64,000 nucleotides of DNA from Pelagibius sp. Alg239-R121 (GTDB taxonomy: Bacteria > Pseudomonadota > Alphaproteobacteria > Kiloniellales > Kiloniellaceae), in assembly GCF_947331435.1 (NCBI RefSeq), contig NZ_CAMZOF010000008.1, forward strand, positions 310,001 through 374,000, in the 5' to 3' direction. Positions 1,832-26,445 of this stretch are shown here, in pieces; positions within the stretch are counted from its first letter, which is position 1, and the number at the start of each line of letters is the position of its first letter. The position numbers and the translations under genes were made by a program. Below the pieces are notes generated by a model. That model had not been told where the DNA came from, made no database searches, and was given only the letters and a program-made list of their open reading frames with translations.

Positions 1832-3805
1832 ATGCCTGTCTCAATCGGAATGACCCTGCGTCCTCTTGCGTCCGCCACTGCAATCTGTGTCGGCGTTATT
1901 TCAGTTTCCGGCCCGGCCATAGGCGATACGACTGCGCAGCTGCGTATCTTGGAAACCACGGATATCCATGTTCACGTTGTCGACTATGACTATTACGCCG
2001 ACAAACCCTCCGCTTCGGTTGGATTGGCCAAGGTCGCAACGCTGATCGAGCAGGCGCGGGCGGAAAACGTCAACTCCCTGATGATTGACAACGGAGATTT
2101 GATCCAAGGCAATCCACTCGGTGACTACATGGCTAAACGCCGAGGGCTGGAAAAAGACGATGTACATCCGGTTTACAAGGCCATGAACCTGATCGATTAC
2201 GATGTCGGTAATATCGGCAATCACGAGTTCAACTACGGCTTGGATTTCCTCGGCAAAGCGCTGGCGGGCGCAAAATTTCCTTACGTCAGTGCAAATGTCT
2301 ATCAGGATGACGGGGATCTGGATCCGAGTAACGACAAACCATACTTTGCACCCTACGTCATTCTCGAGCGCGAACTTCTGGCAGAAGACGGTAAGAGCTA
2401 TCCGATCAAGATCGGTGTAATCGGCTTCGTGCCGCCACAAGTCATGCAGTGGGATAAGGCCAATCTGGCCGGTAAACTGATCGCGCGCGATATTGTCGAC
2501 ACCGCACACCGCTACGTCCCTGAAATGCGGGCGCTAGGGGCCGATGTCGTGATCGCTGTCCCGCATTCAGGACTGACAACTGCAGCTCCCAAAGCGCTTG
2601 ACGAGAACGCAACTTACGAATTGAGCTTGATCCCGGGAATAGACGCTATCCTCTTTGGTCACGCGCATCAGGTTTTCCCATCGGACAGCTACGCCGACAT
2701 GCCAGGCGTCGACATCAGGTCGGGGACGATCAACGGTGTTCCAGCAACCATGCCCGGTTTCTGGGGTAGCCATCTGGGGCTTGTGGATCTTAACCTGCGG
2801 CGCAGCGATGCAGGTAAGTGGCGGGTGACTTCAGGAACCGGCTCGGTACGTGCTGTCTTCAAGCGCGATGGGCGCAAGAAGATTCCGCTGGTTGACGCCG
2901 ATCCGAAGATTCTTGCAGCCGTCGCCGAGGAACACCAGGCAACGATCGCCTACATGAGCGAAGCGGTGGGTAAGGTCGAAGCGCCGATCAACAGCTACTT
3001 TGCCCTGGTCGCCGACGACCCCTCTATTCAAATCGTGACCAATGCACAAAAATGGTACGTCGAGGAGCTGATCAAGGGAACGGAATACGATGGTATTCCA
3101 GTCCTCTCCGCCGGTGCTCCCTTCAAGGCCGGAGGTCGCGGTGGCCCAGACTATTACACTCTGGTGGAAAGCGGCGATATTGCTCTCAGAAATGTCGCCG
3201 ATTTGTACATCTACCCCAATACCTTGCGTGCCGTTCTTCTTACAGGAGGCGAGGTCCGGGAGTGGCTCGAAATGTCTGCGGGCGCTTTTAACAGAATCGA
3301 CCCGACTTCGGGTGCCGAACAGGCGCTCTTGAACCCGGAATTTCCGTCCTACAATTACGACGTCATTGATGGCGTGACCTATGAAATCGATCTGACTCAG
3401 CCTGCCCGTTACGCCAAGGACGGGACGCTGGCCGATCCGGATGCACATCGCATTACAGAGCTCAAATTCGATGGCGCACCGATCGACCCGGAGGCGAAGT
3501 TTATCGTCGCTACCAATAATTATCGTGCAGGTGGGGGTGGCAATTTCCCGCGGTTGGATGGCAGCACCACGATCATCGAGGCGCCCGATGAAAATCGTAC
3601 GGTCCTCGCCAACTATATTTTCGAATTGAAGAGCTTCAATCCTTCCGCCGACATGAATTGGTCTTTCAAAGCCATACCCGGAGACGTCAATGTGACTTTC
3701 TCGTCGTCGCCATCTGCATCTTCCGTGCTGGACGGAACCTTGCCGATCGAGGCAGCGGGGCAGGCGGACGATGGCTTCGCGAAGTATCGAATGATTATGA
3801 AATAG
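1832..3805 (+). CDS. cpdB: Periplasmic 2',3'-cyclic-nucleotide 2'-phosphodiesterase / 3'-nucleotidase
   Basis: This 657-residue exported enzyme is expected to hydrolyse 2',3'-cyclic nucleotides and 3'-nucleotides, allowing nucleotide scavenging. An N-terminal hydrophobic segment (residues about 8-30) fits a signal peptide. The calcineurin-like metallophosphatase motifs follow in order: TTDIHVHV, DNGDLIQG, IGNHEFNYG and a GHAHQ block near residue 280. The second half has the 5'-nucleotidase C-terminal domain, including an NNYRAGGGGNFPRL stretch that lines the base pocket in this family. Length matches CpdB. The ATG at 1832 follows a GGGAG ribosome site. The gene stands alone. Confidence 0.92.
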   Translation: MPVSIGMTLRPLASATAICVGVISVSGPAIGDTTAQLRILETTDIHVHVVDYDYYADKPSASVGLAKVATLIEQARAENVNSLMIDNGDLIQGNPLGDYMAKRRGLEKDDVHPVYKAMNLIDYDVGNIGNHEFNYGLDFLGKALAGAKFPYVSANVYQDDGDLDPSNDKPYFAPYVILERELLAEDGKSYPIKIGVIGFVPPQVMQWDKANLAGKLIARDIVDTAHRYVPEMRALGADVVIAVPHSGLTTAAPKALDENATYELSLIPGIDAILFGHAHQVFPSDSYADMPGVDIRSGTINGVPATMPGFWGSHLGLVDLNLRRSDAGKWRVTSGTGSVRAVFKRDGRKKIPLVDADPKILAAVAEEHQATIAYMSEAVGKVEAPINSYFALVADDPSIQIVTNAQKWYVEELIKGTEYDGIPVLSAGAPFKAGGRGGPDYYTLVESGDIALRNVADLYIYPNTLRAVLLTGGEVREWLEMSAGAFNRIDPTSGAEQALLNPEFPSYNYDVIDGVTYEIDLTQPARYAKDGTLADPDAHRITELKFDGAPIDPEAKFIVATNNYRAGGGGNFPRLDGSTTIIEAPDENRTVLANYIFELKSFNPSADMNWSFKAIPGDVNVTFSSSPSASSVLDGTLPIEAAGQADDGFAKYRMIMK

Positions 3806-3849
3806 CCAGCCACGAGTTAACGACGGCATAGGGAAGTCAGGCCAGTTTT

Positions 3850-4401
3850 ATGAGTACTATTCTGCGTGCCCATCGTGGGATTATGCCGAAAATCCACGAA
3901 ACGGCTTTTATTGCGGAAACGGCCGTGATCATCGGGGATGTGGAAATCGGTCCCGGGTCGTCGGTCTGGTACGGATGCGTGATCCGGGGCGATGTCAATG
4001 CCATCAGGATCGGGGCGGATACCAACATTCAGGACGGCAGTGTCATCCATGTGACGCATGACCGGAACGGCGACTACCGTCAAACAGGCGGTGGTGTCTC
4101 CACGACAATCGGAGACGGGGTGACGATCGGCCATATGGCGCTGCTGCACGCCTGCGAAATCGAGTCTCACGCCTTTATCGGCATGCGCGCTGTACTAATG
4201 GATAAAGCAGTGGTGGAGACCGGTGCCATGGTTGCCGCAGGTGCGATGGTAACGCCGGGGAAACGCGTTTTGAGCGGTCAGCTTTGGTCGGGTGCACCGG
4301 CGGCTTACATGCGCGACGTAAAGCCCGACGAAGCTGAATTCATTAGCTATCTGGGCGGCAACTACGCCGATCTGGCTGCATCCTACAGAGATCAGGCCTA
4401 G
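3850..4401 (+). CDS. Gamma-class carbonic anhydrase family protein
   Basis: This 183-residue left-handed beta-helix protein is built from hexapeptide repeats, for example AVIIGD-VEIGPG and ADTNIQDG. The zinc-ligand histidines of the gamma carbonic anhydrase family can be placed at H67 or H70 (VIHVTH), H95 and H100 (IGHMALLH). It lacks the long acidic loop of the Cam enzyme and so belongs to the CamH/YrdA/PaaY branch. Catalytic activity in that branch is variable, so CO2 hydration is likely but not assured. It is convergent with the PHA synthase gene. Confidence 0.9.
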   Translation: MSTILRAHRGIMPKIHETAFIAETAVIIGDVEIGPGSSVWYGCVIRGDVNAIRIGADTNIQDGSVIHVTHDRNGDYRQTGGGVSTTIGDGVTIGHMALLHACEIESHAFIGMRAVLMDKAVVETGAMVAAGAMVTPGKRVLSGQLWSGAPAAYMRDVKPDEAEFISYLGGNYADLAASYRDQA

Positions 4402-4422
4402 ATTCTGACCCTCAGCGAGCGT

Positions 4423-6222
4423 TCAGCGTTTCAGACTGACTTTGACATAACTTCCCGGAGCGTCCTCGATCGCCTTGATCTTTCCGGCACCCGGTTTTCG
4501 GGCGGTCACCTGTTTGCCCTGGTGTTTGTTTAGCCAACGCGACCAATCTGTCCACCAAGACCCTTCGTGTTTCTTGGCATTCTTGTACCAGGTCTCCGGG
4601 TGCTTGGCGCGTTTACTGTTGGTCCAATAAGCGTATTTGCTGGTTTCTGGCGGATTCACCACCCCTGCGACATGACCCGCAGCGGTCAGAACGAAGTGTA
4701 CCGGCCCGTTAAAGAGATCTACGGCGAGATACGTCGAACGCCAGGGTGCGATATGATCTTCCTTGGCGGCGACCATGAAGACCGGCGTTTCGATCTTTGC
4801 GAGATCGATCGCGACGCCGTCGAGGATCACGCCCCCTGGAACGGCTAACAGGTTCTCCAGATACATCTTACGCAGATAGAAGGAATGCATGGCGGCAGGC
4901 ATGCGGGTGGCGTCTTCGTTCCAATAAAGCAGGTCGAAAGGAAAGGGTTCTTTGCCCAGCAGGTAGTTATTAACCACGAAAGACCAAATCAGGTCGTTGG
5001 CCCGCAACAGATTGAAGGTTGCGGCCATCTCCTTGCCGTCCAAATACCCCTGCTGTTCCATCTTTTCTTCCAGCAGAGTCACCTGCTCTTCGTCGATGAA
5101 GACGCCAAGTTCTCCGGGTTCGGAGAAGTCTGTCAGGGTCGCGATAAAGGTCGCGGCGTGAACCAGCGGTTTTTTCTTTTCGGCTAGAAAAGCCAGCGTT
5201 ACCGAAAGAAGTGTGCCGCCGAGGCAATAACCAATTGCGTTAACATCGTCTTCGCCTGTTGCCTTGCAGATCACGTCGATGGCCGCGAGCGGACCTTCCA
5301 GCATGTAATCCTCAAAGGTCTTTTGCGCCAGGCTTTCGTCCGGGTTAACCCAGGAGATGCAAAAGACCGTCAGACCTTCGTCGACCATCCACTTGATGAA
5401 AGAATTCTCCGGCCTGAGGTCGAGGATGTAATACTTGTTGATCCAGGGCGGCACGATCAGAACCGGCCGTTTGGCAACCTTTTTCGTGGTCGGGCTGTAT
5501 TGGATCAGCTGCATCAAATCGTTTTGAAAGACCACTTTACCGGGTGTCACGGCAACGTCCTCGCCCAGAGTAAAGGCCTCGTCGTCCGTCATGCTGATTT
5601 TCAGCTGCCCGCCGCCTCGGCTGAGGTCGTGGAGCAGGTGGTCCAGGCCCTTAATCAGATTTTGCCCGCCACTTTCCACAGTTGCGCGCAGCACTTCGGG
5701 GTTGGTGAAAAGAAAGTTGGAGGGCGCAAGGGCGTCGACGAACTGACGGGTGAAGAAGTCGATCTTTTCGGCCTCGTGTTCATCCTTCCCATGGAGACTC
5801 TGAACGGTCGAGCGCAGCCATCTGGCGCTGAGCAGATAAGATTGCTTGATGTAGTCGAAGAGCTGGTTGTCCTCCCAGGCCTCGTCCTTGAACCGCCGGT
5901 CGTGCCTGTCCGGTGAAATAGTGGGTTCGACCTCGTGGCCCATCATGCGCCGGGTCGTGGACTGCCAGAGGTCCATATAGCTCTTCCACAGCGACATTTG
6001 CGCCTGGACCATGATTGCCGGGTTGGTCATCAAGCGGGTTGTCAGCTCCAGGAAGGCACCTCCGATGTTCAGAGGATCGACCTGTGACGCATAATCGATG
6101 CCGTAGTTGTCCTTCAGGAAGTCAGTCACCATATCGCGACTCTGCTCGGCAATCATGCCGAGAGAGCTGGCGAGGTCCTGTGTTTCTTCTGGGGTGTTTT
6201 CGGCGTACGGTTGCTCATCCAT
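4423..6222 (-). CDS. phaC: Class I poly(R)-hydroxyalkanoate synthase
   Basis: This 599-residue enzyme polymerises (R)-3-hydroxyacyl-CoA into storage polyester on granules. The N-terminal PhaC domain is followed by an alpha/beta hydrolase core. The nucleophile is the Cys of GYCLGG (C333). The catalytic Asp is in the AAKEDHIAPW segment and the His in TAAGHVAGVV. Length and the absence of a PhaE or PhaR partner nearby mark it as class I. No phaA, phaB or phasin gene is adjacent. The upstream region is shared with the divergent OmpA-domain lipoprotein gene. Confidence 0.96.
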   Translation of the reverse strand: MDEQPYAENTPEETQDLASSLGMIAEQSRDMVTDFLKDNYGIDYASQVDPLNIGGAFLELTTRLMTNPAIMVQAQMSLWKSYMDLWQSTTRRMMGHEVEPTISPDRHDRRFKDEAWEDNQLFDYIKQSYLLSARWLRSTVQSLHGKDEHEAEKIDFFTRQFVDALAPSNFLFTNPEVLRATVESGGQNLIKGLDHLLHDLSRGGGQLKISMTDDEAFTLGEDVAVTPGKVVFQNDLMQLIQYSPTTKKVAKRPVLIVPPWINKYYILDLRPENSFIKWMVDEGLTVFCISWVNPDESLAQKTFEDYMLEGPLAAIDVICKATGEDDVNAIGYCLGGTLLSVTLAFLAEKKKPLVHAATFIATLTDFSEPGELGVFIDEEQVTLLEEKMEQQGYLDGKEMAATFNLLRANDLIWSFVVNNYLLGKEPFPFDLLYWNEDATRMPAAMHSFYLRKMYLENLLAVPGGVILDGVAIDLAKIETPVFMVAAKEDHIAPWRSTYLAVDLFNGPVHFVLTAAGHVAGVVNPPETSKYAYWTNSKRAKHPETWYKNAKKHEGSWWTDWSRWLNKHQGKQVTARKPGAGKIKAIEDAPGSYVKVSLKR

Positions 6223-7786: not shown

Positions 7787-9007
7787 ATGGAACAAGAATT
7801 TCACCGTATCAAGCGTCTGCCGCCTTATGTGTTTGCCGAAGTCAACGACCTGAAGGCAAAGGCCCGCGCAGCCGGTGAAGATATCATCGACTTTGGTATG
7901 GGAAATCCCGATCAGCCACCGCCGCCGCATGTCATCGCAAAGCTGGTTGAGGCGGCCCAGGATCCACGGACGCATCGCTATTCCACCTCCCGTGGAATTC
8001 CTGGATTGCGCAAGGCGCTCGCAGCCTACTATCAGCGCCGTTTCGGCGTGGAAATCGACCCAGACAGCGAAACCTGTGTAACGATCGGCTCGAAAGAGGG
8101 GCTCGCCAATCTGGCGCAGGCGATTACTTCACCGGGCGACATTATCCTAGTGCCGAACCCGAGCTATCCGATCCATGCCTTTGGTTTCATCATTGCCGGC
8201 GCATCGATCCGAAGCATGCCGGTCGGGTCGGATTTCGACTTCATGGCGCAGCTCGAACGTGCCGTGAAGCATTCAGTGCCTAAACCTACGGCATTGGTGC
8301 TCAATTATCCTGCCAACCCAACCGCTGAAGTGGTCGGTGTCGACTTTTACGCCGAGGTGGTCGACTTCTGCCGTCGTCATGGGATCTATGTGATTTCGGA
8401 TTTAGCCTATGCCGAAGTCTATTTCGAAGGCGATCCGCCGCCATCGATCCTGCAGGTGCCGGGTGCCCGGGACATCGCCGTGGAGTTCACGTCGCTCAGC
8501 AAGACCTATTCCATGCCGGGCTGGCGGGTCGGATTCTGTACCGGGAACAAGAAACTGGTCGCCGCTTTGATGCGGGTGAAATCCTATGTCGACTACGGCG
8601 CCTTTACCCCGATCCAGGTCGCGGCAACCACGGCCTTGAACGGCGATCAAAGCTGCATCGACGAGATGCGCGCCCGTTATAAATCCCGGCGGGATGTTCT
8701 CATTTCCGGGCTGGAAGCGGCAGGTTGGGACGTGCCTAGTCCGCCCGCCACCATGTTCGCCTGGGCGCCTCTGCCTCCAGAGTTCGCAGATCTGGGTTCG
8801 CTGGAGTTTTCCAAGCTTCTCCTGCAACACGCCAAGGTCGCTGTGGCGCCAGGCGTTGGTTTTGGAGAATATGGTGATGGACATGTTCGCTTAGGACTGG
8901 TCGAGAACGAACACCGCACACGTCAGGCAGTTCGAAATATCAAGGCACTTTTCAAGGACCCTGAGAAGGTCCGCAACCTAATGGACGAGCGGAAAATAGC
9001 ATCGTGA
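7787..9007 (+). CDS. PLP-dependent class I/II aminotransferase (AlaC / LL-DAP aminotransferase-like)
   Basis: The 406-residue protein is a fold-type I aminotransferase. The PLP lysine is K239 in SLSKTYSMPGWRVGF, D205 and Y208 lie in the cofactor-binding SDLAYAE motif, and NYPANPTA is the usual substrate-side motif. Homologues next to homoserine dehydrogenase in alphaproteobacteria are commonly labelled LL-diaminopimelate aminotransferase or alanine transaminase; the true amino donor is uncertain. I chose the ATG at 7787, which has AAGAG upstream, over a TTG at 7763. The stop overlaps the start of the next gene by four bases, implying translational coupling with hom. Confidence 0.85.
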   Translation: MEQEFHRIKRLPPYVFAEVNDLKAKARAAGEDIIDFGMGNPDQPPPPHVIAKLVEAAQDPRTHRYSTSRGIPGLRKALAAYYQRRFGVEIDPDSETCVTIGSKEGLANLAQAITSPGDIILVPNPSYPIHAFGFIIAGASIRSMPVGSDFDFMAQLERAVKHSVPKPTALVLNYPANPTAEVVGVDFYAEVVDFCRRHGIYVISDLAYAEVYFEGDPPPSILQVPGARDIAVEFTSLSKTYSMPGWRVGFCTGNKKLVAALMRVKSYVDYGAFTPIQVAATTALNGDQSCIDEMRARYKSRRDVLISGLEAAGWDVPSPPATMFAWAPLPPEFADLGSLEFSKLLLQHAKVAVAPGVGFGEYGDGHVRLGLVENEHRTRQAVRNIKALFKDPEKVRNLMDERKIAS

Positions 9008-10296
9008 CGAAACCTCTGCGTATTGGAATTGCCGGCCTCGGCACGGTTGGTGCCGGGACTCTCGGAATCATCGAATCCCATGGGAAATTGCTTGCCGCCC
9101 GTTGTGGCCGTCATTTTCTGGTCTCCGCTGTGTCGGCGCGTGACCGGAGTAGAGACCGTGGCGTCGACCTTTCCGCCGTGCGCTGGTTCGAAGACGCAGT
9201 GGCAATGGCGGCTGACGATCAGATCGATGTTGTGCTGGAGCTGATTGGCGGTTCTGACGGTATCGCGAAGGAAGTGGTCGAGACCGCTATTTCCACCGGG
9301 AAGCATGTTGTAACTGCAAACAAGGCGTTGCTTGCCCATCACGGCACCGAGCTGGCACGTGCCGCAGAGGACGCCAAGGTATTCCTGGGCTATGAAGCAG
9401 CTGTGGCCGGTGGTATTCCTGTAATCAAAAGCCTGCGTGAAGGTCTTGGTGGAAACGCTATCGAGCAGGTTTACGGCATTTTGAACGGCACCTGCAACTA
9501 TATCCTCTCTGCTATGCGCGACAGTGGCCGCGAGTTCGGCGAGGTTCTCAACGAAGCACAAGAATTGGGATATGCGGAAGCCGATCCGAGCTTCGATGTC
9601 GATGGTGTGGATGCCGCGCACAAGCTCGCAATTCTGACGGCTCTTGCCTTTGGGTGCGAGGTTGATTTCGAGTCGGTCTATGTTGAGGGAATTCGAGAGA
9701 TCTCCTCTCTGGATATCGCCTACGCCGAGGAATTGGGCTACCGCATAAAGCTCTTGGGGATTGCCCGGCGCGAAGAAGGTGGCATCTTGCAGCGTGTGCA
9801 TCCCTGTATGGTGGCCAGAGACACCCCGATCGCCAATGTCGAAGGCGTGTTCAATGCTGTCGTGGCGGAGGGCGACTTTGTCGGCCGCATTCTCTCAGAG
9901 GGCGCCGGGGCCGGGGCGGGGCCGACGGCTTCTGCTGTTGTTGCCGACCTGTTGGATATTGCACGGGGCAGCACGCTTCCAACCTTTGCCATTCCGGCTG
10001 GAGAACTGAGCAACAGTAAAAGCGCAACGATGGATGGCCATAGTGCCTCACACTACGTACGCTTGATGGTTGTTGATCGTCCCGGCGTTATTGCAGATAT
10101 TGCCGCAGCCCTGCGTGACGAGGAAATTTCCGTCGAGGCCATGCTGCAGCGTGGCCACGCTCCGGGTGAGGCTGTGCCGGTGGTCATTACGACGCACGCG
10201 ACGACACAAAAGCGTATCGCGATGGCTCTGGATCGGATCGACGCGATGGAGGCGGTGCTTGAAACGCCGCGCATGATCAGAATTGAATCGCTGTAG
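9004..10296 (+). CDS. hom: Homoserine dehydrogenase
   Basis: This 430-residue enzyme reduces aspartate semialdehyde to homoserine for threonine and methionine synthesis. The N-terminal NAD(P)-binding Rossmann fold has GLGTVGAGT. The catalytic domain contains VVTANKALLA and the conserved GILNGTCNYIL and GYAEADPSFDVDGVDAAHK blocks. The C-terminal 80 residues are an ACT domain (VVDRPGVIADIAAALRD), the usual site of threonine feedback. The GTG start overlaps the aminotransferase stop. With glpX 80 bases downstream, it heads a housekeeping run. Confidence 0.95.
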   Translation: MTKPLRIGIAGLGTVGAGTLGIIESHGKLLAARCGRHFLVSAVSARDRSRDRGVDLSAVRWFEDAVAMAADDQIDVVLELIGGSDGIAKEVVETAISTGKHVVTANKALLAHHGTELARAAEDAKVFLGYEAAVAGGIPVIKSLREGLGGNAIEQVYGILNGTCNYILSAMRDSGREFGEVLNEAQELGYAEADPSFDVDGVDAAHKLAILTALAFGCEVDFESVYVEGIREISSLDIAYAEELGYRIKLLGIARREEGGILQRVHPCMVARDTPIANVEGVFNAVVAEGDFVGRILSEGAGAGAGPTASAVVADLLDIARGSTLPTFAIPAGELSNSKSATMDGHSASHYVRLMVVDRPGVIADIAAALRDEEISVEAMLQRGHAPGEAVPVVITTHATTQKRIAMALDRIDAMEAVLETPRMIRIESL

Positions 10297-10376
10297 CCGG
10301 GACAGGACGTACCCGCATCAGCGACGCCCATATTGAGGGCGATGAATGTTGAAGAACGAATTGGAGTAGAAGAACG

Positions 10377-11375
10377 ATGTCACAATCCGATGCAGCAGCA
10401 AGCGCGATGGATCGCAATCTGGCGCTTGAAACCGTCCGCGTAACGGAGGCGGCTGCTCTTGCGGCGTCAAGACTAATGGGACGGGGCGATGAAAAGGCGG
10501 CGGACCAGGCAGCCGTCAATGCCATGCGTGAATCCCTTAACGAGCTTGCAATCGACGGAACCGTTGTCATCGGCGAAGGCGAACGCGACGAAGCCCCGAT
10601 GCTGTACATCGGCGAGAAGGTCGGGCAGGGCGGCCCAATGATCGACATCGCGCTCGATCCGCTCGAAGGTACGACATTGACGGCAAAAGGCGGCCCCAAC
10701 GCACTGGCGGTCATTGCGCTGGCGGAATCCGGAGGCTTTCTGAACGCACCGGATACCTACATGAACAAGATTGCCGTCGGTGGCGGACTGCCTGAAGGGG
10801 TGGTTGACCTTGATAAAGCCCCGGCTGAAAATCTGAAAAGCCTGGCTGAAGCCAAGAAGACCGAAGTTGCAGACTTGGTCGTCTGTATCCTGGATCGGCC
10901 ACGCCACAGCGAACTGATCTCACAGGTCCGCGAAGCCGGCGCCCGTATCATGCTGATCGGCGATGGTGACGTCTCCGGTGCGATGGCAACCAGCCGGCCC
11001 GACAGTGGGGTTGATCTCTACATGGGGGTTGGCGGTGCACCCGAGGGTGTTCTGGCTGCTGCCGCCTTGCGCTGCATCGGCGGCCAGTTCCAGGGTCGGC
11101 TGGTCTTTCGGAATGAAGACGAGCGGGAGCGCGGCCGGCGCTGGGGAATCGAAGATTTCGACCGCAAGTACCAATTGAATGAGCTGGCGGGCGGTGACGT
11201 GATGTTCGTGGCGACGGGTGTTACGGACGGCAGCATGCTGCGCGGTGTCCGCCGTACTCCAGGCGGCGCGACCACGCATTCGATGGTGATGCGCTCTAAG
11301 ACCGGAACGGTCCGGCTGGTCGAGGCTCAACACGATTTCACCCGCAAGACCTGGTACGACAAGCTGGGGGTATAG
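10377..11375 (+). CDS. glpX: Class II fructose-1,6-bisphosphatase
   Basis: The 332-residue GlpX-type phosphatase converts fructose 1,6-bisphosphate to fructose 6-phosphate in gluconeogenesis. It may also act on sedoheptulose bisphosphate. The metal-binding motifs GEGERDEAPMLYIGE and DIALDPLEGTT are present, with the AGARIMLIGDGDVSGA block in the middle of the protein. The ATG at 10377 has GGAG about 10 bases upstream. It lies 15 bases ahead of recJ, so the two are probably co-transcribed. Confidence 0.95.
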   Translation: MSQSDAAASAMDRNLALETVRVTEAAALAASRLMGRGDEKAADQAAVNAMRESLNELAIDGTVVIGEGERDEAPMLYIGEKVGQGGPMIDIALDPLEGTTLTAKGGPNALAVIALAESGGFLNAPDTYMNKIAVGGGLPEGVVDLDKAPAENLKSLAEAKKTEVADLVVCILDRPRHSELISQVREAGARIMLIGDGDVSGAMATSRPDSGVDLYMGVGGAPEGVLAAAALRCIGGQFQGRLVFRNEDERERGRRWGIEDFDRKYQLNELAGGDVMFVATGVTDGSMLRGVRRTPGGATTHSMVMRSKTGTVRLVEAQHDFTRKTWYDKLGV

Positions 11376-20227: not shown

Positions 20228-22246
20228 TTAGTTCAGGCTTGGACGCCCGATCGCTGTCGCTTCAATCCTGCTTTCCACAAAAATGCTACGGCCTCCGGCA
20301 TCTTCGACCGTTGTATCCCGGCGACTTGACTGTATTTCGGGCTCAAAGGCGCCGGCGCTGACGGCGGACTCCCTCGCTAAACGTTCGGCTTCTTCGGTTG
20401 CGAAGTCTGTGGCCAAGTCCAACGACGGGAACTCGCGCATAACATTGCTTAAGTGCACCCGGTAGCGGCCCTCGCCGGGTGTGGTGACAGTGGCTGTCGT
20501 CGTCTGGGCAACGCTGCTTACAACGGCACCAATTGCGTTGCAGACCTCTGCATGCGACGGGATCGTTACACCTGCACTCAATCGCTTTGCGATCTCGGGA
20601 TAATAGTTTGCTGCTGGTGCTCCAATCGCGACAACGGGCAGACGCAAACGGAACGCAAATTCGACAGGATCCTCATGCAGCGGGCGATCTGTGTTGGTGT
20701 CTCGGCCTACAGCCTGGCGAAGGAAATGCCGACCGACTTCATTTAAACTATCGAGTTGAGCCGAGGGAAAGGTTTCAGCCAGGCTGGCCATAACTAGCAA
20801 TTCAGCCGACGCGATGACCATTGCTTCAGTGATTGTTTCTGCGAGTTCGACTGGTTCCTCCGGCAAAGAAAGCCCAGCCGCCGCCGCACGGCGGGCGAAG
20901 AGCCGGGCGGCAGTTTCGGCGGCTGGTCGCGACCACGCCTGATGTCGGCCCAGGATATGCGCGGCATCGCTGGGCGTGAAACCCGCGACGATAACCAAGC
21001 CTCGTTCGACAAGGCGTTGGAACGGTCGTTCCATTGCCGATCCCGAGAGCAAATCTGCGAGGGCGACAGGGCGATCCTGAAGCGCACGCCAAAGACTCCG
21101 CTCGGATGAAGTCAGGGAAGATTCAGTGGTGTCGAGTAACCGCTGCTTCAGTGCAAAGAGTCCAGCGTACGCCGGCAGTCGTTCATCGGCGAGCTGTTGT
21201 CCGAGGCTCTCCAAAACCTCCGGGTGGTCTTTGGCGAGCAGGGAAATTGGCACGTTTCGTCTCGGACCCAGCGTCAGGCCGGAACCCCGATCCATCTGTA
21301 CTTCGCTATCCCCTCCCAGGCCAAAAGTCTGAACGGCGATCGCCTGTACCATCGTTCTCCAGCCGCCAATGGTAGCGCCATCGGCGCTCAACAAAGGTCG
21401 CCCGTTTCGCAGAACGGCGATGTCCGAGGTTGTTCCGCCAATGTCGACCACCAGCATATCCGACTGACCGGCAAGGAAAGTCGCGCCGATCGTGCTCGCG
21501 GCCGGTCCGGACAGCACGGTTTCGATCGGCCGCTTCAGAGCAACACCGGCCGAAATCAGCGACCCGTCACCTTTGACGATCATCAGTGGGGCTTCTATCC
21601 GGCGCTCAGTGAGAAGGTTCTGAACCGATAAGATAAGATCCTGTAGTTGTGGAATCAGTCGCGCATTTAACACCGCCGTCAGGGCTCGGCGGGGAGCATC
21701 CAGGTTTGAAGCCAATTGGTGAGCGGCGGTTACGGGTCTGCCGGACAGCGTATGAACCAGTTCGCTGACTGCGATTTCGTGCGCCGGATTGCGAACGGCG
21801 AAAAGACCTGCAACGGCGAAGGCCGAAACGCTTGGAGCGTAGTGTTCGATAGCTTCTTTCGCCGCCGCGAGATCCAGCGGTGCCGCTTCATCACCAGCGG
21901 CATTGTGGCCGCCTTCAATGAATACCACCGGGTCTTTGCCCAGGGCTTCGCCTAAGCCGGCTCGGCCGAGTGCTTTTTTGTCATAACCGATGAGCAAGAG
22001 ACAGACCGGGCTCCCTTGACCTTCGACCACCGCATTTGTGGCAAGGGTGGTGGAGATCGAAACCAGTTCAATCTTGGTGCCGTCCTGATTTTCTTCGAGA
22101 ACGGCCCCGATCGCTTCGCCGACACAAAGCGAAAGATCGTGTTTCGTTGTCAGGGCTTTTGCCGAGGCAAGGACTCCGTCTTCTCGACTGAAAAGAACAG
22201 CGTCCGTGTAGGTGCCGCCGGTGTCGATTCCCAGAAGTTTAGCCAT
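20228..22246 (-). CDS. Hydantoinase/5-oxoprolinase family protein, HyuA-like subunit
   Basis: A 672-residue ATP-dependent amidohydrolase subunit of the hydantoinase A / oxoprolinase family. The N-terminus has the actin-like phosphate loop LGIDTGGTYTDAVL. The central hydantoinase A domain has VDIGGTTSDIAVLRNGRP, then GGWRTMVQAIAVQTFGLGGDS. I chose the ATG at 22246, because upstream codons to 22414 lack similarity. The usual partner HyuB is missing next to it, so substrate and activity are open. It is divergent from the BCCT operon, which might bring in its substrate (inference). Confidence 0.85.
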   Translation of the reverse strand: MAKLLGIDTGGTYTDAVLFSREDGVLASAKALTTKHDLSLCVGEAIGAVLEENQDGTKIELVSISTTLATNAVVEGQGSPVCLLLIGYDKKALGRAGLGEALGKDPVVFIEGGHNAAGDEAAPLDLAAAKEAIEHYAPSVSAFAVAGLFAVRNPAHEIAVSELVHTLSGRPVTAAHQLASNLDAPRRALTAVLNARLIPQLQDLILSVQNLLTERRIEAPLMIVKGDGSLISAGVALKRPIETVLSGPAASTIGATFLAGQSDMLVVDIGGTTSDIAVLRNGRPLLSADGATIGGWRTMVQAIAVQTFGLGGDSEVQMDRGSGLTLGPRRNVPISLLAKDHPEVLESLGQQLADERLPAYAGLFALKQRLLDTTESSLTSSERSLWRALQDRPVALADLLSGSAMERPFQRLVERGLVIVAGFTPSDAAHILGRHQAWSRPAAETAARLFARRAAAAGLSLPEEPVELAETITEAMVIASAELLVMASLAETFPSAQLDSLNEVGRHFLRQAVGRDTNTDRPLHEDPVEFAFRLRLPVVAIGAPAANYYPEIAKRLSAGVTIPSHAEVCNAIGAVVSSVAQTTTATVTTPGEGRYRVHLSNVMREFPSLDLATDFATEEAERLARESAVSAGAFEPEIQSSRRDTTVEDAGGRSIFVESRIEATAIGRPSLN

Positions 22247-22567
22247 GCAAAATAAATCCTCAAACCCGAGTGTCTGCGGGCTGTCAAAAGCAAAACCTCC
22301 TCTAGCACCAACAGGCAGCGAATGTCTCCCGGAATCACCGAGTCGTTGAAGACCAATTGAGCTGAGCAATGTCGCAGCAAGCAGGACGCGCTCAAACAGT
22401 AAATTCAGGCGCAAAACCTGAGTTTAATTGAGTTTCGGCTGTTGCTACAGATGGTCGGCTATGGCGTGAATTGCACAAACAATGTCGCGAATTGGCCTAT
22501 CTACCAAAAGTAGGTTACCCTCACAATTGGGTGTATAAAAATAAATACGCGCTGGGGGGAGACACTG
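22247..22567. other. Divergent promoter region, hydantoinase-like gene / BCCT operon
   Basis: No gene was found here. An AT-rich segment TGTATAAAAATAAATA at about 22529-22545 lies just before the GGGGGGAGA ribosome site of the BCCT gene and may include its -10 region. The repeated element GAATTG (22467-22472 and 22489-22494) was noted but not interpreted. Confidence 0.4.
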
Positions 22568-24118
22568 ATGTCGTCAATCACGTCCAAGCTCACAATCAAC
22601 ACAGTATTTATTGTTTCAATGGTGTGCTGCGCCGGAATTGGGATCTGGGGGATCATAAGTCCGGAAGGCATGACAGGAGCGATGCTCGGGTTTACCAACT
22701 ACGCACTGACCGGTGTCAGTTGGGCTTGGCTTTTCATTTGCTCCAGTTTCCTTTTCCTCTCTCTCTATATGGCGCTTGGACCTTACGGAAAAATCCGATT
22801 GGGCAAAGACGACGAGGAACCCGAGTTCTCGACGGTGTCCTGGATTGCGATGCTTTTTGCCGGCGGTATGGGCTCCGGTCTTTTGCTCTGGGGACCGGCC
22901 GAGCCGATGTATCATTACATCAGCCCTCCGGGCATGGAAGGCGGAACGGCCGCTGCAGCCCGTCAGTCGTTGGTCATCACAAACCTGCATTGGGGTTTTC
23001 ACGCCTGGTCGATCTATGCGATCTGCGCGCTGGTGATCGCGTACTTCACCTTCCGCCGTGGCCAGCCATCGATGATTTCAACACCGATCAAGGCATTGTT
23101 CTCCGGCCGGGCAGGCGAGGCCATGGGCAACGTTGCCGATATTCTTGCGGTTCTTTCAGTCGTGTTCGGGCTCGCCGGATCCTTGGCTATGGGGACTTTG
23201 GCGGTCCGCTCCGGCTCGTTCTACGCCTTTGGTACCGATGAAAGTGTCACGACGGCGATCATCATCCTGGGCATCCTTTTCGTCTGTTACATGCTGTCTG
23301 CGACCACAGGCGTCGACAAGGGAATCAAGATCCTGTCGAACGTCAATATGGTGATCGCAATTCTCATCATGTTGCTGGTTCTCTTTGCCGGCCCAACGCG
23401 CTTTCTGCTTGAGACCTTCATTGATTCGATCGGTAATTATTTTGCCGGGATATTCACCATGTCGTTCAAGCTCTTCCCCTTTGAAGATCTTGGTGGTTGG
23501 AGCGCGGGTTGGACGCTGACCTACCTGATCTGGTGGATTGCCTGGGGACCCTTCATCGGTATCTTTGTGGCGCGCATCAGCCGCGGACGGACGATCCGCG
23601 AATTCTGCATGGGGGTCATCTTCGTGCCGACGCTGTTTTCCATGCTGTGGTTCGCCGTCTTCGGCGGCTCTGGTTTTTACATCGAGATGTTTGGTGGTGG
23701 TGGCCTCAAGGAAATAATTTTCGAGGACGCGACCAAGGCGTTGTTTGCCTTCTTGGCGTACTTCCCAGGCGGGCACATTCTGAACATCCTGGCTGTGTCT
23801 TTGATGTTCATCTTCCTCGTGACCTCGGCAGATTCGGGAACCTTCGTTCTTTCGATGATGACGACCGACGGGAACTTGAACCCACCGATTATGCAAAAAA
23901 TGGTGTGGGGTACTTTGATCGCTGCAATTACGACCGGGACGATCTTTTCGGAATCCGTGGCAGTCGCGAAAGCCATGGCGATCACGGGAGCGATACCCTT
24001 TACCGTGATCGTGTTGTTGCAAATCGTCGGGTTTATGCGGGAAATCAAAAAGGAGATTCCGCAACTCAAACCCATCGAGGCCCGCGGAGAAGCCGTTGGT
24101 CAAAGTAGCGGCAGTTGA
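22568..24118 (+). CDS. BCCT family (betaine/carnitine/choline) transporter
   Basis: A 516-residue secondary carrier with about 12 membrane helices. The BCCT substrate and sodium region is GGMGSGLLLWGPAEPMYHY; G100-M101-G102-S103-G104 matches the GMG pattern of Na+-coupled members such as BetP rather than the CaiT exchanger. The signature WWIAWGPFIGIFVARISRGRTIREF is present. It lacks the long charged N- and C-terminal tails that sense osmotic stress in BetP. It is the first gene of an operon: 18 bases precede the dual binding-protein gene and 17 more precede the universal stress gene. The substrate is probably a quaternary or zwitterionic amine. Confidence 0.92.
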   Translation: MSSITSKLTINTVFIVSMVCCAGIGIWGIISPEGMTGAMLGFTNYALTGVSWAWLFICSSFLFLSLYMALGPYGKIRLGKDDEEPEFSTVSWIAMLFAGGMGSGLLLWGPAEPMYHYISPPGMEGGTAAAARQSLVITNLHWGFHAWSIYAICALVIAYFTFRRGQPSMISTPIKALFSGRAGEAMGNVADILAVLSVVFGLAGSLAMGTLAVRSGSFYAFGTDESVTTAIIILGILFVCYMLSATTGVDKGIKILSNVNMVIAILIMLLVLFAGPTRFLLETFIDSIGNYFAGIFTMSFKLFPFEDLGGWSAGWTLTYLIWWIAWGPFIGIFVARISRGRTIREFCMGVIFVPTLFSMLWFAVFGGSGFYIEMFGGGGLKEIIFEDATKALFAFLAYFPGGHILNILAVSLMFIFLVTSADSGTFVLSMMTTDGNLNPPIMQKMVWGTLIAAITTGTIFSESVAVAKAMAITGAIPFTVIVLLQIVGFMREIKKEIPQLKPIEARGEAVGQSSGS

Positions 24119-24136
24119 GCAGAGGAGGGAAAGACT

Positions 24137-25975
24137 ATGTTTAGATCACTTCTAATCGCCGTTCTGGCCTTCACGCTCAGCGCGTGTGGAGACAGCGAGG
24201 GTCAGATCAAAATCGGAGCTAAGAATTTTGGCGAAAGCCGTATTCTGGCTCATATGCTGGCCGAACTGGCATCTGCGCAGGGTCTGCCGGTTGCCGGTGT
24301 CGTTGATTATCCAAGTACGCAGGCCATACAGGCTGCGTTGAAACAGGGCGATATCGACGCTTATCCCGAGTACAACGGCACCGGTCTCGTCATGCTGGGA
24401 CAAAACCCGACCGCGGACGGTGACGCAGCCACGAAGCGGGTAAAGGAGTTATACGATCCGCTCGGCCTGTCCTGGCGGCCGCGTATCGGCTTTGCCAACA
24501 ATTACGGCTTGGCCATGCGTCCCGACCGGGCCGCTGAACTCGGCCTCACATCCATGAGCCAGTTGGTTGCACAAGCTGCTTCGTTAAACGTCGGCATCGA
24601 GGACGATTTCATTAAGCGCCCACTCGATGGCTTTCAGCCGATGGCGCAGCGATACGGGTACAATTTCGGCAGCACCGATATTGTGCCGTTGAGCGACCGC
24701 GCACAGCTCTACGACAAGCTGCTGGATGGGCAAGTGGATCTGATTGAGGTCTACACCAGTGATGGACAGATCGCAGACTATGGTCTCGTTCTGTTGGAAG
24801 ACGATCTGCAGTTCTTCCCCGTCTATCAGGCGGCAATCCTGGCAAGTGCTGCCTCACTCGCCAATCATAATGGTCTCGGCGGAGCTTTTGACGCCCTGGC
24901 CGGTAAGATCGATATCGAGACAATGCGGGATCTTAACCGCAAGGTCGATATTGAAGGACGTTCACCACGCGCAGTGGCCCGGGATGCCCTGGCGCGTCTC
25001 GGGTTGATCGACAGTGGTGCTGTTGAGGCTGACGACCCGCTGTTCATTGCGGCATCGCCTTTCGTGAGTGAGGGCGTTGCGGCCAACGCGGCGCTGCGGG
25101 CGGCCAGAAGTGCATTTCAGGGGCGGAACGTTCAAATTCTCCCCAGCCATGCGCCGTTGGAGATGGTTGCGAATGGCGAAGCCCGTCTTGCTCTTGTAGC
25201 TTCCGATGCATTCTTCGACGTCACTAAGCCGACGCCAGTACGGAATGAGAGTTTTGAGGCGGTTGCCGTGATCGGACAGAATCTCGTCCACATGGTGACG
25301 GCGCAGGGCGGCCCCGCAGACCTGTCGAGCATTACGCGTATTGGCACCGGGCCGGACGGCTCGGCGTCCCATCGTCTCGCTACGGTGCTTGCATCTGGGC
25401 TTTCGCTTTCGGCGGAAGTCGTCCCTGGAGAAGTTGAGAATACCGCCGCTTTGCTGGCGAAGCTGACCGACGGTTCGGCGGATGCGGCATTGGTTTCGGC
25501 ACCGGAAGGGGACAGTGCACTTCTTGCGAGTTTCGCTGATACCAGCTTTCGCCTGTTGCCGATCGAAGGCTGGAATGAAGGCGCCAATCTGGTTCGCTTC
25601 CCCTTCATCCGGCAGAACCGGATTTCGAAACTCGTCTACCGCGGGCAGTTCCATCCTGTAGAGACTCTGGGCGAGCAACTCGTATTGGCCGGACCTGCGC
25701 CTGACACCGCTGCGATCGTTGGCGATCAGGGGCCTAGCGCGATTGCCGTGGGCCTGTCGCCGATTTCCGGTAATGCGGTTATGGCGCTGAACGAAGCGGT
25801 GTCCGGGGCAACCTTGATTGATCCCACGCTGAAGCAGGCCGCTGCGCTTGCGCCGGTGCTGCCCGAACCACCAGCTGCGATCAATCCTGCATCGGATGTT
25901 TCTATCCTTAGTCTTCTCGTGGTTGCCATGTTCGTCTGGATGGTGTGGCTGTACATCCGACCAGAGTACCGCTGA
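24137..25975 (+). CDS. Dual solute-binding protein: OpuAC-type module, TAXI/NMT1-like module, C-terminal membrane anchor
   Basis: A 612-residue exported protein. Residues 1-17 form a lipoprotein signal with lipobox LSAC (C17). Residues about 22-290 are a full OpuAC-type (ProX/OsmF-like) binding domain: IKIGAKNFGESRILAHMLAE, PSTQAIQAALKQGDIDAYPEYNGTG, GIEDDFIKRPLDG. Residues about 300-545 look like a second binding domain of TAXI/NMT1 type: SHAPLEMVANGEARLALVASDAFF, SSITRIGTGPDGSASHR, a DAALVSAPEGDS segment. Residues about 585-606 are a hydrophobic helix ending in RPEYR. Each module would be a separate protein in ABC or TRAP systems. Here it is sandwiched between a BCCT carrier and a universal stress protein. 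The TAXI assignment is the weaker of the two. Confidence 0.8.
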   Translation: MFRSLLIAVLAFTLSACGDSEGQIKIGAKNFGESRILAHMLAELASAQGLPVAGVVDYPSTQAIQAALKQGDIDAYPEYNGTGLVMLGQNPTADGDAATKRVKELYDPLGLSWRPRIGFANNYGLAMRPDRAAELGLTSMSQLVAQAASLNVGIEDDFIKRPLDGFQPMAQRYGYNFGSTDIVPLSDRAQLYDKLLDGQVDLIEVYTSDGQIADYGLVLLEDDLQFFPVYQAAILASAASLANHNGLGGAFDALAGKIDIETMRDLNRKVDIEGRSPRAVARDALARLGLIDSGAVEADDPLFIAASPFVSEGVAANAALRAARSAFQGRNVQILPSHAPLEMVANGEARLALVASDAFFDVTKPTPVRNESFEAVAVIGQNLVHMVTAQGGPADLSSITRIGTGPDGSASHRLATVLASGLSLSAEVVPGEVENTAALLAKLTDGSADAALVSAPEGDSALLASFADTSFRLLPIEGWNEGANLVRFPFIRQNRISKLVYRGQFHPVETLGEQLVLAGPAPDTAAIVGDQGPSAIAVGLSPISGNAVMALNEAVSGATLIDPTLKQAAALAPVLPEPPAAINPASDVSILSLLVVAMFVWMVWLYIRPEYR

Positions 25976-25992
25976 GCAAAGGAGATTCTGCT

Positions 25993-26445
25993 ATGACTGC
26001 AATTGTACTTGCTCCGATCGACATCACCGATGCTGAGACGACGAAGAAGGTTCTCGAGGCTGCGGTTGCTCAGACCAAGGCCGTTGATGGCGAACTCCAC
26101 GTTATGACCGTTGTGCCAGACATCGTAAGCGGGCTCGACTGGCGTTACGCCATCAGGGGCGAGACGGGTGGTTCGGCTGAGTTCGACATGTCGAAAGTTG
26201 TTGCGGAGTGCCTTGAGCGTTTGAACAAGATCATCGCCGATCAGACGCCTGCCGGTATGTCTGCGAAAACCATTGCCCGTCACGGGACCGTTTATGAGCA
26301 GGTCCTGAAGGTCGCTGAGGATATTGGAGCGGATCAAATCGTCATGGGCGCCCATCGGCCGGGACTTGGAGATTTTCTGCTTGGGCCCAACACTGCGCGT
26401 ATCGTCCGACATGCCACCTGTTCGGTGAACGTGATCCGGATCTGA
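25993..26445 (+). CDS. Universal stress protein (UspA family)
   Basis: A 150-residue Usp domain starting TAIVLAPIDITDAETTKKVLEAA. The ATP-binding glycine loop is degenerate: MGAHRPGLGDFLLGPNTARIV keeps the second part (G..-L-G-P-N-T) but has Arg where the second glycine of the G-2x-G motif is expected, so nucleotide binding is uncertain. It lies 17 bases behind the dual binding-protein gene. A Usp protein, TeaD, controls the ectoine TRAP transporter TeaABC in Halomonas, so a role in regulating the BCCT carrier is plausible (inference). The ATG at 25993 has GGAG about 8 bases upstream. Confidence 0.9.
   Translation: MTAIVLAPIDITDAETTKKVLEAAVAQTKAVDGELHVMTVVPDIVSGLDWRYAIRGETGGSAEFDMSKVVAECLERLNKIIADQTPAGMSAKTIARHGTVYEQVLKVAEDIGADQIVMGAHRPGLGDFLLGPNTARIVRHATCSVNVIRI

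Follow-up and report, generated by a model that had tools for sequence, protein, structure and literature searches.

A BCCT carrier gene linked to the gene of a tethered two-module binding protein, mostly with a universal stress protein gene, in Pelagibius and its relatives

Gene order, distribution and descent

In a 64,000-base stretch of the genome of Pelagibius sp. Alg239-R121 (contig NZ_CAMZOF010000008.1, positions 310,001 to 374,000), which is referred to here as the window, three open reading frames (ORFs) on the + strand encode a carrier of the betaine/choline/carnitine transporter (BCCT) family, a binding protein with two modules, and a universal stress protein (Usp). The intergenic gaps are 18 and 17 bases, and the operon that an initial annotation had read from the letters of the window was confirmed from these ORFs. 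The genome, of 8.0 Mb, contains four more BCCT genes, whose products share 28-34% identity with the carrier of the trio, and the closest named relative of the binding protein is that of Denitrobaculum tricleocarpae.

The initial annotation had made conservation of the neighbours in related genomes a point on which its proposal depended. A BCCT gene was found upstream of the binding protein gene, on the same strand, in all 24 loci whose upstream side is visible, across families and on plasmids. The pairing of carrier and binding protein therefore stood, whereas the arrangement of three genes was not universal, a Usp gene being present in 21 of the 24 opened loci. Because it is missing from the other three, the core of the system is, by gene content, the carrier and the binding protein. 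In these tallies the copy of Martelella NC20 is among the 24 upstream sides and outside the Usp count, and that of genome G412 is in the Usp count and outside the upstream count. Two pairs of loci with identical letters (L009 and L056, L015 and L008) were each counted once, L058 begins inside the binding protein, and L010-L013, which match the OpuAC part only, were left out.

The search of the 61 genomes of the window's order gave 15 full-length binding proteins, namely the window's own and 14 others at 38-84% identity, together with a distant one in genome G439; no further full-length binding protein was found in these genomes beyond that of G412, whose contig starts inside the gene. Among the order's 16 genomes with the binding protein, the same-strand upstream BCCT gene is present in 15, the exception being the truncated contig of G412, and a Usp gene follows in 15, lying 390 bases downstream in G408 and being absent from G439. 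The binding protein accompanies each of the 14 BCCTs of the order that share at least 62% identity with the window's carrier. The next nearest BCCTs of the order, at about 41% identity, had it in none of the eight that were opened out of nine (L143-L150, with 2.7 to 7.3 kb visible on each side), and no further full-length copy was found in G409, the genome of the ninth. Six BCCTs at 58-84% identity (E up to 1e-120) were found in 295 genomes of a second family, to which G747 belongs; all six have the binding protein and five have the Usp. In a sample of the class (385 genomes), BCCTs at E up to 1e-115 exceeded 40% identity only in the window's genome and a congener, with a single further match at 40%, and these two genomes were also the only ones with a full-length binding protein among three scored candidates per genome. 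BCCTs of at least 58% identity numbered 14 in 61 genomes, 6 in 295 and 2 in 385 (these two already counted among the 14), and each of them had the partner. Full-length binding proteins occurred in two genomes each of the class sample and of a phylum sample (398 genomes), with the window's genome in both, and the remaining profile matches in these samples cover the OpuAC part. By these counts the system is rare outside its order, although rare full-length copies could be missed where three candidates are scored per genome. Plasmid copies were found in Paracoccus aminovorans (with Usp), Martelella NC18 (without Usp) and Martelella NC20 (positions only).

Two other accounts of the linkage were rejected: chance neighbourhood, by the 24 of 24 loci with a BCCT gene upstream, and pairing with a binding protein as a general trait of BCCTs, by its presence at only 15 of the 92 BCCT places (E up to 1e-60) in the 61 genomes of the order.

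Quick trees were built of the carrier, the binding protein and the Usp, in which some forks are weak and some branches long; a BCCT gene split in two, on the P. aminovorans plasmid, was left out of the carrier tree. The three trees share their main groups, which cut across families. One group comprises ten loci, which belong to four different families of the order, and another holds three loci of the second family, plus P. aminovorans in the binding protein tree. The window's own group contains, besides genomes like that of Denitrobaculum, further members of the order and two loci of the second family, whose order differs between the trees. Martelella and G1039 form a pair that lacks the Usp. 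Because the window's family falls in two of these groups and the window's group covers two orders, the operon has probably moved between lineages as a unit. In G439, a distant BCCT (44-45% identity) and a distant two-module binding protein (26-29%) lie together without a Usp (L069, 7186-10568). This BCCT clusters with eight solitary BCCTs on long branches, which possibly reflects an independent pairing or the loss of the binding protein in the solitary BCCTs.

The binding protein, the carrier and the Usp

The N-terminus of the binding protein carries what we take to be a signal peptide with a lipobox ending at Cys17, a residue kept in all 21 aligned rows that have an N-terminus. The C-terminal hydrophobic helix is kept in 22 of 22 rows, with a best 19-residue hydropathy of 1.67 in L069 and of 1.98-2.82 in the rest. 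The first module matches OpuAC in Pfam (E 3e-44, residues 23-286), and the best Foldseek matches of its predicted structure were choline, betaine and ergothioneine binding proteins and sensor precursors. An aromatic cage is known in EgtU, ProX, OpuBC and OpuCC (PMC9732360). By alignment the cage maps to Y79, Y123, Y206 and Y230, and all four positions are aromatic in 21 of 22 rows, the exception being L069.

The second module was recognized less directly. For the second half of the window's protein Pfam gave a weak match (NMT1_3/TAXI), and the protein itself reached only 26 bits against TIGR02122 (TRAP_TAXI), below the cut-off of 84 bits, and a single-sequence search with the second module alone gave no PDB match. 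Of the 18 family members, 17 match TIGR02122 at E up to 0.001 (best 2.7e-16), and a family profile of the module matches the Thermus TAXI (TRAP-associated extracytoplasmic immunogenic) protein 1us4 with E 2e-11. The module was modelled alone with a predicted local distance difference test score (pLDDT) of 88.5 and a predicted template modelling score (pTM) of 0.86. The top seven Foldseek matches of this model were TAXI proteins (VcGluP, the Thermus protein) or 'immunogenic' proteins (E 4e-13 to 5e-11; TM-score 0.59-0.68 over the query), with the next match at only 6e-9. By profile and by predicted fold, the second module is of TAXI type.

It has been reported that the main glutamate-binding Gln of TAXI proteins is Q93 in VcGluP and Q78 in the Thermus protein (PMC11574862). 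At the corresponding residue 355, all 22 rows have A, S, G, P or H, so that the Gln is lost. In residues 307-320, where Y45 of VcGluP would be expected from reading of the alignment without superposition, no column is half or more aromatic. Since the Tyr is present in 78% and the Gln in only 54% of TAXIs (PMC11574862), their loss alone leaves membership in the TAXI family and other ligands possible. Judged from these residues, the module has the TAXI fold without the glutamate pocket, and it may serve as an adaptor or bind a different ligand. The term 'dual solute-binding' of the initial annotation therefore holds for the presence of a second module, of TAXI type, but may be wrong as to solute binding at two sites, because neither the Gln nor the expected aromatic residue is kept.

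The carrier has a full-length BCCT domain (PF02028, positions 1-485 of 485, 533.8 bits) and scores 443.5 bits against TIGR00842, over the cut-off of that model. Its aromatic box and site II Trp (W142, W147, Y150, W322, W323 and W326), found in 22 of 22 system carriers, align with W146, W151, Y154, W325, W326 and W329 of TmaT, by which the TmaT substrate is bound (PMC11708041). Phe replacing Tyr154 of TmaT is a mark of choline, Phe replacing Trp329 a mark of dimethylsulfoniopropionate (DMSP), and GxGxG a mark of sodium coupling in BCCTs (PMC11708041). Because the window's carrier has Tyr and Trp at these two positions and the sequence GMGSG, transport of a betaine-like solute with sodium is likely. 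The form GMG[SA]G is present in 21 of 22 system carriers, in contrast to GMGVG in the eight opened solitary BCCTs; the Val is also found in L069. The tails outside the aligned core comprise 11 and 16 residues, as compared with 68 and 44 in the BetP chain 9gkk_A, which agrees with the short tails described in the initial annotation. Although 56 positions separate the carriers of the system clade from the eight solitary controls, no docking patch was evident among them. Near the ion site, the majority sequence of the solitary BCCTs L143-L150 (about 41% identity) is TSVVSAAF, as against TSADSGTF in the window's carrier and TSADSAST in BetP.

The Usp domain was recognized by Pfam (E 7e-20) and by matches to UspF structures (E 6e-20). 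The canonical ATP-binding motif of Usp proteins is G-2X-G-9X-G(S/T). In all 21 system Usps its end reads G-P-[NT]-T-A, as compared with G-P-[NK]-A-A in Usps encoded in operons of tripartite ATP-independent periplasmic (TRAP) transporters. All 21 also carry a further motif, G[LI]D[WF]RY[AS]IRG[EA]xxGS, which none of the seven TRAP-operon Usps compared has. In the Usp tree a branch with a support of 100 in the Shimodaira-Hasegawa-like approximate likelihood ratio test (SH-aLRT) separates the Usps of the system from these seven.

Outside the system, the plasmid relatives of this Usp were found in operons of a TAXI solute-binding protein (SBP), a TRAP permease and a Usp in all five records opened out of 49 matching. 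Four of these records represent the nearest organisms or groups (Thalassospira, Paracoccus SMMA_5_TC, Paracoccaceae La 6 and Aliiroseovarius), and the fifth, Pseudosulfitobacter, stands lower down. Two further relatives of the Usp were found in the genome to which the window belongs. The closer one (40% identity) lies in locus L169 (G000:C3:667500-675500, 1874-6045) behind genes for a TAXI SBP (NMT1_3) and a DctM-type permease of 887 amino acids, which carries the DUF3394 domain, known as the 'claw' (PMC11574862). The other (38%) sits with DctM and DctP genes. Among the examined neighbours of the system loci there was no TRAP permease (DctM). Since the second binding module and, by its nearest opened relatives, the Usp are both of the TAXI-TRAP kind, the BCCT carrier appears to occupy the place of the TRAP permease. 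The TRAP-like logic that the initial annotation had suggested for the trio thereby finds a basis in sequence. Beside two of the five TAXI-TRAP operons (L151 and L152) lie genes for both an aminotransferase and a 3-keto-5-aminohexanoate cleavage enzyme, which hints that the TRAP substrate may be amino-acid-like.

Table 1. Coordinates in the window of the three genes and of parts of their products
Feature	Position	Strand	Basis and remarks
BCCT family carrier, 516 aa	22568..24118	+	ORF and Pfam; aromatic box and GMGSG intact; short tails
Two-module tethered binding protein, 612 aa	24137..25975	+	ORF, Pfam and alignment
Putative signal peptide and lipobox to Cys17 (LSAC)	24137..24187	+	Alignment of family rows
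OpuAC module, residues 23-291, with cage Y79, Y123, Y206, Y230	24203..25009	+	Pfam and alignment
TAXI-type module, about residues 302-520	25040..25696	+	TIGR02122, Foldseek and profile; TAXI Gln lost and Tyr apparently lost
Hydrophobic helix at the C-terminus (about residues 586-607), read as transmembrane	25892..25957	+	Predicted structure and alignment
Universal stress protein, UspF-like, 150 aa from ATG	25993..26445	+	Pfam and UspF structure matches
Usp segment GLDWRYAIRGETGGS	26131..26175	+	Motif in 21/21 system Usps, 0/7 TRAP-operon Usps

A proposed mechanism and its alternatives

We consider it moderately probable that the three proteins work as one transport unit, in which a tethered receptor binds a solute of the quaternary ammonium type and either delivers it to a sodium-coupled BCCT carrier or gates that carrier, with the Usp as a regulator. 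The binding protein would be exported and held by a lipid anchor at its N-terminus and by its C-terminal helix in the inner membrane. Its OpuAC module would trap a betaine-like quaternary ammonium solute in the aromatic cage, and the TAXI-derived module together with the C-terminal helix would dock the protein onto the carrier. The carrier would then accept the solute and move it inward with sodium, while the cytoplasmic Usp could tune the carrier in place of the long tails of the BetP type.

Several observations weigh against this mechanism. To our knowledge, no binding protein is needed by the BCCT carriers described so far, and the term 'binding protein' is absent from the main text of a 2026 BCCT structure paper. 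The aromatic box is also present in eight of eight solitary control BCCTs; it is therefore a general BCCT trait and informs on the kind of solute rather than on the system. The full-length model of the binding protein is of moderate quality (pLDDT 75.7, pTM 0.52), and as a prediction it is too weak to position the two modules relative to each other. The Usp is dispensed with in three of 24 loci, and at one locus (L054, P. aminovorans plasmid, 9001-10517) the BCCT frame is split in two beside an intact binding protein and an intact Usp. Insertion sequence (IS) elements are annotated near this split gene. The matches to the Usp also include enterobacterial UspF and Methylocystis relatives (32-37% identity), beyond the five plasmid records opened. 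The genes flanking the system loci vary, including those for serine hydroxymethyltransferase and acyl-CoA dehydrogenase, an FAD oxidoreductase, PhyH, indoleamine dioxygenase and others, and do not indicate a single solute; absent matches in this survey carry little weight, because it used longest-ORF picks, some of which are wrong frames in GC-rich DNA. Finally, the gene linkage would also fit a sensor or co-regulation.

The main rival, which like the favoured reading needs contact between receptor and carrier, is a receptor that only gates: the tethered binding protein would respond to the solute outside, or to the osmotic conditions, and turn the carrier on or off by way of its membrane helix, with no transfer of solute, and the Usp would report the state inside the cell. 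The double anchoring of the binding protein, the short tails of the carrier, the loss of the TAXI pocket residues and the system-specific motif of the Usp would all suit such gating. We nevertheless regard it as rather unlikely, given that the OpuAC cage is kept as in delivery proteins and that the binding proteins of TRAP transporters deliver solute (PMC5812351).

It is improbable that carrier and binding protein are merely co-regulated, with the BCCT working alone, the binding protein serving an ATP-binding cassette (ABC) permease encoded elsewhere, and the operon being shared because both import osmoprotectants. There are nine OpuAC matches in the window's genome, the binding protein of the trio among them, and ABC uptake of betaine-like solutes therefore probably exists in the cell. 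However, the linkage in 24 of 24 loci and the joint travel of the genes as a unit speak against such an arrangement, and ABC binding proteins do not usually have a TAXI module or a C-terminal membrane helix. The scan for ABC ATPase patterns near the trio covered 25 stretches from 24 distinct loci, two of them short, and gave a single match, in L061, at a distance of 3 kb and on the opposite strand. This makes service to an ABC permease less likely, although a partner encoded far away would escape such a scan. Least likely of the accounts considered is that the binding protein has become a chaperone of the carrier trimer or a factor for its assembly, so that ligand binding is incidental. Conserved linkage and anchoring would fit this account, but the cage residues are strongly conserved.

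Relation to known transporters and neighbouring genes

A close parallel to the trio is offered by the TAXI-TRAP systems, which consist of a TAXI SBP, a fused QM permease and often a Usp, and to whose kind its second binding module and its Usp belong. The gene logic of a binding protein, an ion-coupled carrier and a Usp gene in last place is shared, and lipoprotein tethers occur there too (PMC11574862). The trio differs in that its carrier is a BCCT, of the LeuT fold, encoded first and without a TRAP permease, and in that its binding protein has an additional OpuAC module and a C-terminal membrane helix and has lost the glutamate-binding Gln. In TeaABC-TeaD, an ectoine TRAP transporter with a Usp (cited in PMC11574862), a Usp gene likewise accompanies a binding-protein-dependent carrier of a compatible solute. 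There, however, the carrier is a TRAP transporter, and the Usp of the trio has a motif absent from seven TRAP-operon Usps, a set that does not include TeaD. As in the BCCT carriers BetP, BetT, TmaT and DddT, the carrier of the trio is full-length with aromatic box and GxGxG intact; unlike these, it has fixed gene partners. Its tails are shorter than those of BetP, and the motif of the system carriers is GMG[SA]G in 21 of 22, against GMGVG in the eight opened solitary BCCTs. The first module of the binding protein shares the cluster F-III fold and the aromatic cage with OpuAC-type ABC systems (OpuB, OpuC and EgtU), and the presence of two binding modules in one chain recalls the tandem-domain GlnPQ. 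In contrast to both, no ABC permease or ATPase is encoded beside the trio, and the second module comes from another SBP family.

Two families of binding-protein-dependent secondary carriers are known, TRAP and the tripartite tricarboxylate transporters (TTT) (PMC5812351, PMC4921485). Our search, which covered open-access texts and not subscription papers or preprints, yielded no description of a BCCT that is paired with a binding protein. We tentatively suggest, at somewhat short of even probability, that the trio represents a third kind beside TRAP and TTT, in which a BCCT has recruited a TAXI module and a TRAP-operon Usp, together with an added OpuAC module, in a membrane-tethered form, and in which transport depends on the receptor or becomes one-way or of high affinity through it. 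The trio would thus point to a new design for transporters that are assisted by a binding protein. If a BCCT needs a binding protein or is gated by one, a carrier of the LeuT fold can gain such a protein, and because the structures and mechanism of BCCTs such as BetP, TmaT and DddT are well studied, the effect of the added receptor on affinity, direction and regulation could be measured against receptor-free cousins. It would also help in approaching the Usp proteins associated with TRAP transporters, of which, according to PMC11574862, neither the role nor the mechanism is known.

Upstream of the trio and divergent from it, a hydantoinase/oxoprolinase-like gene lies on the - strand at positions 20228-22414 of the window. 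Apart from genomes G421 and G412, whose contigs are too short to judge, such a gene adjoins the trio only in two congeners, at 76-77% identity.

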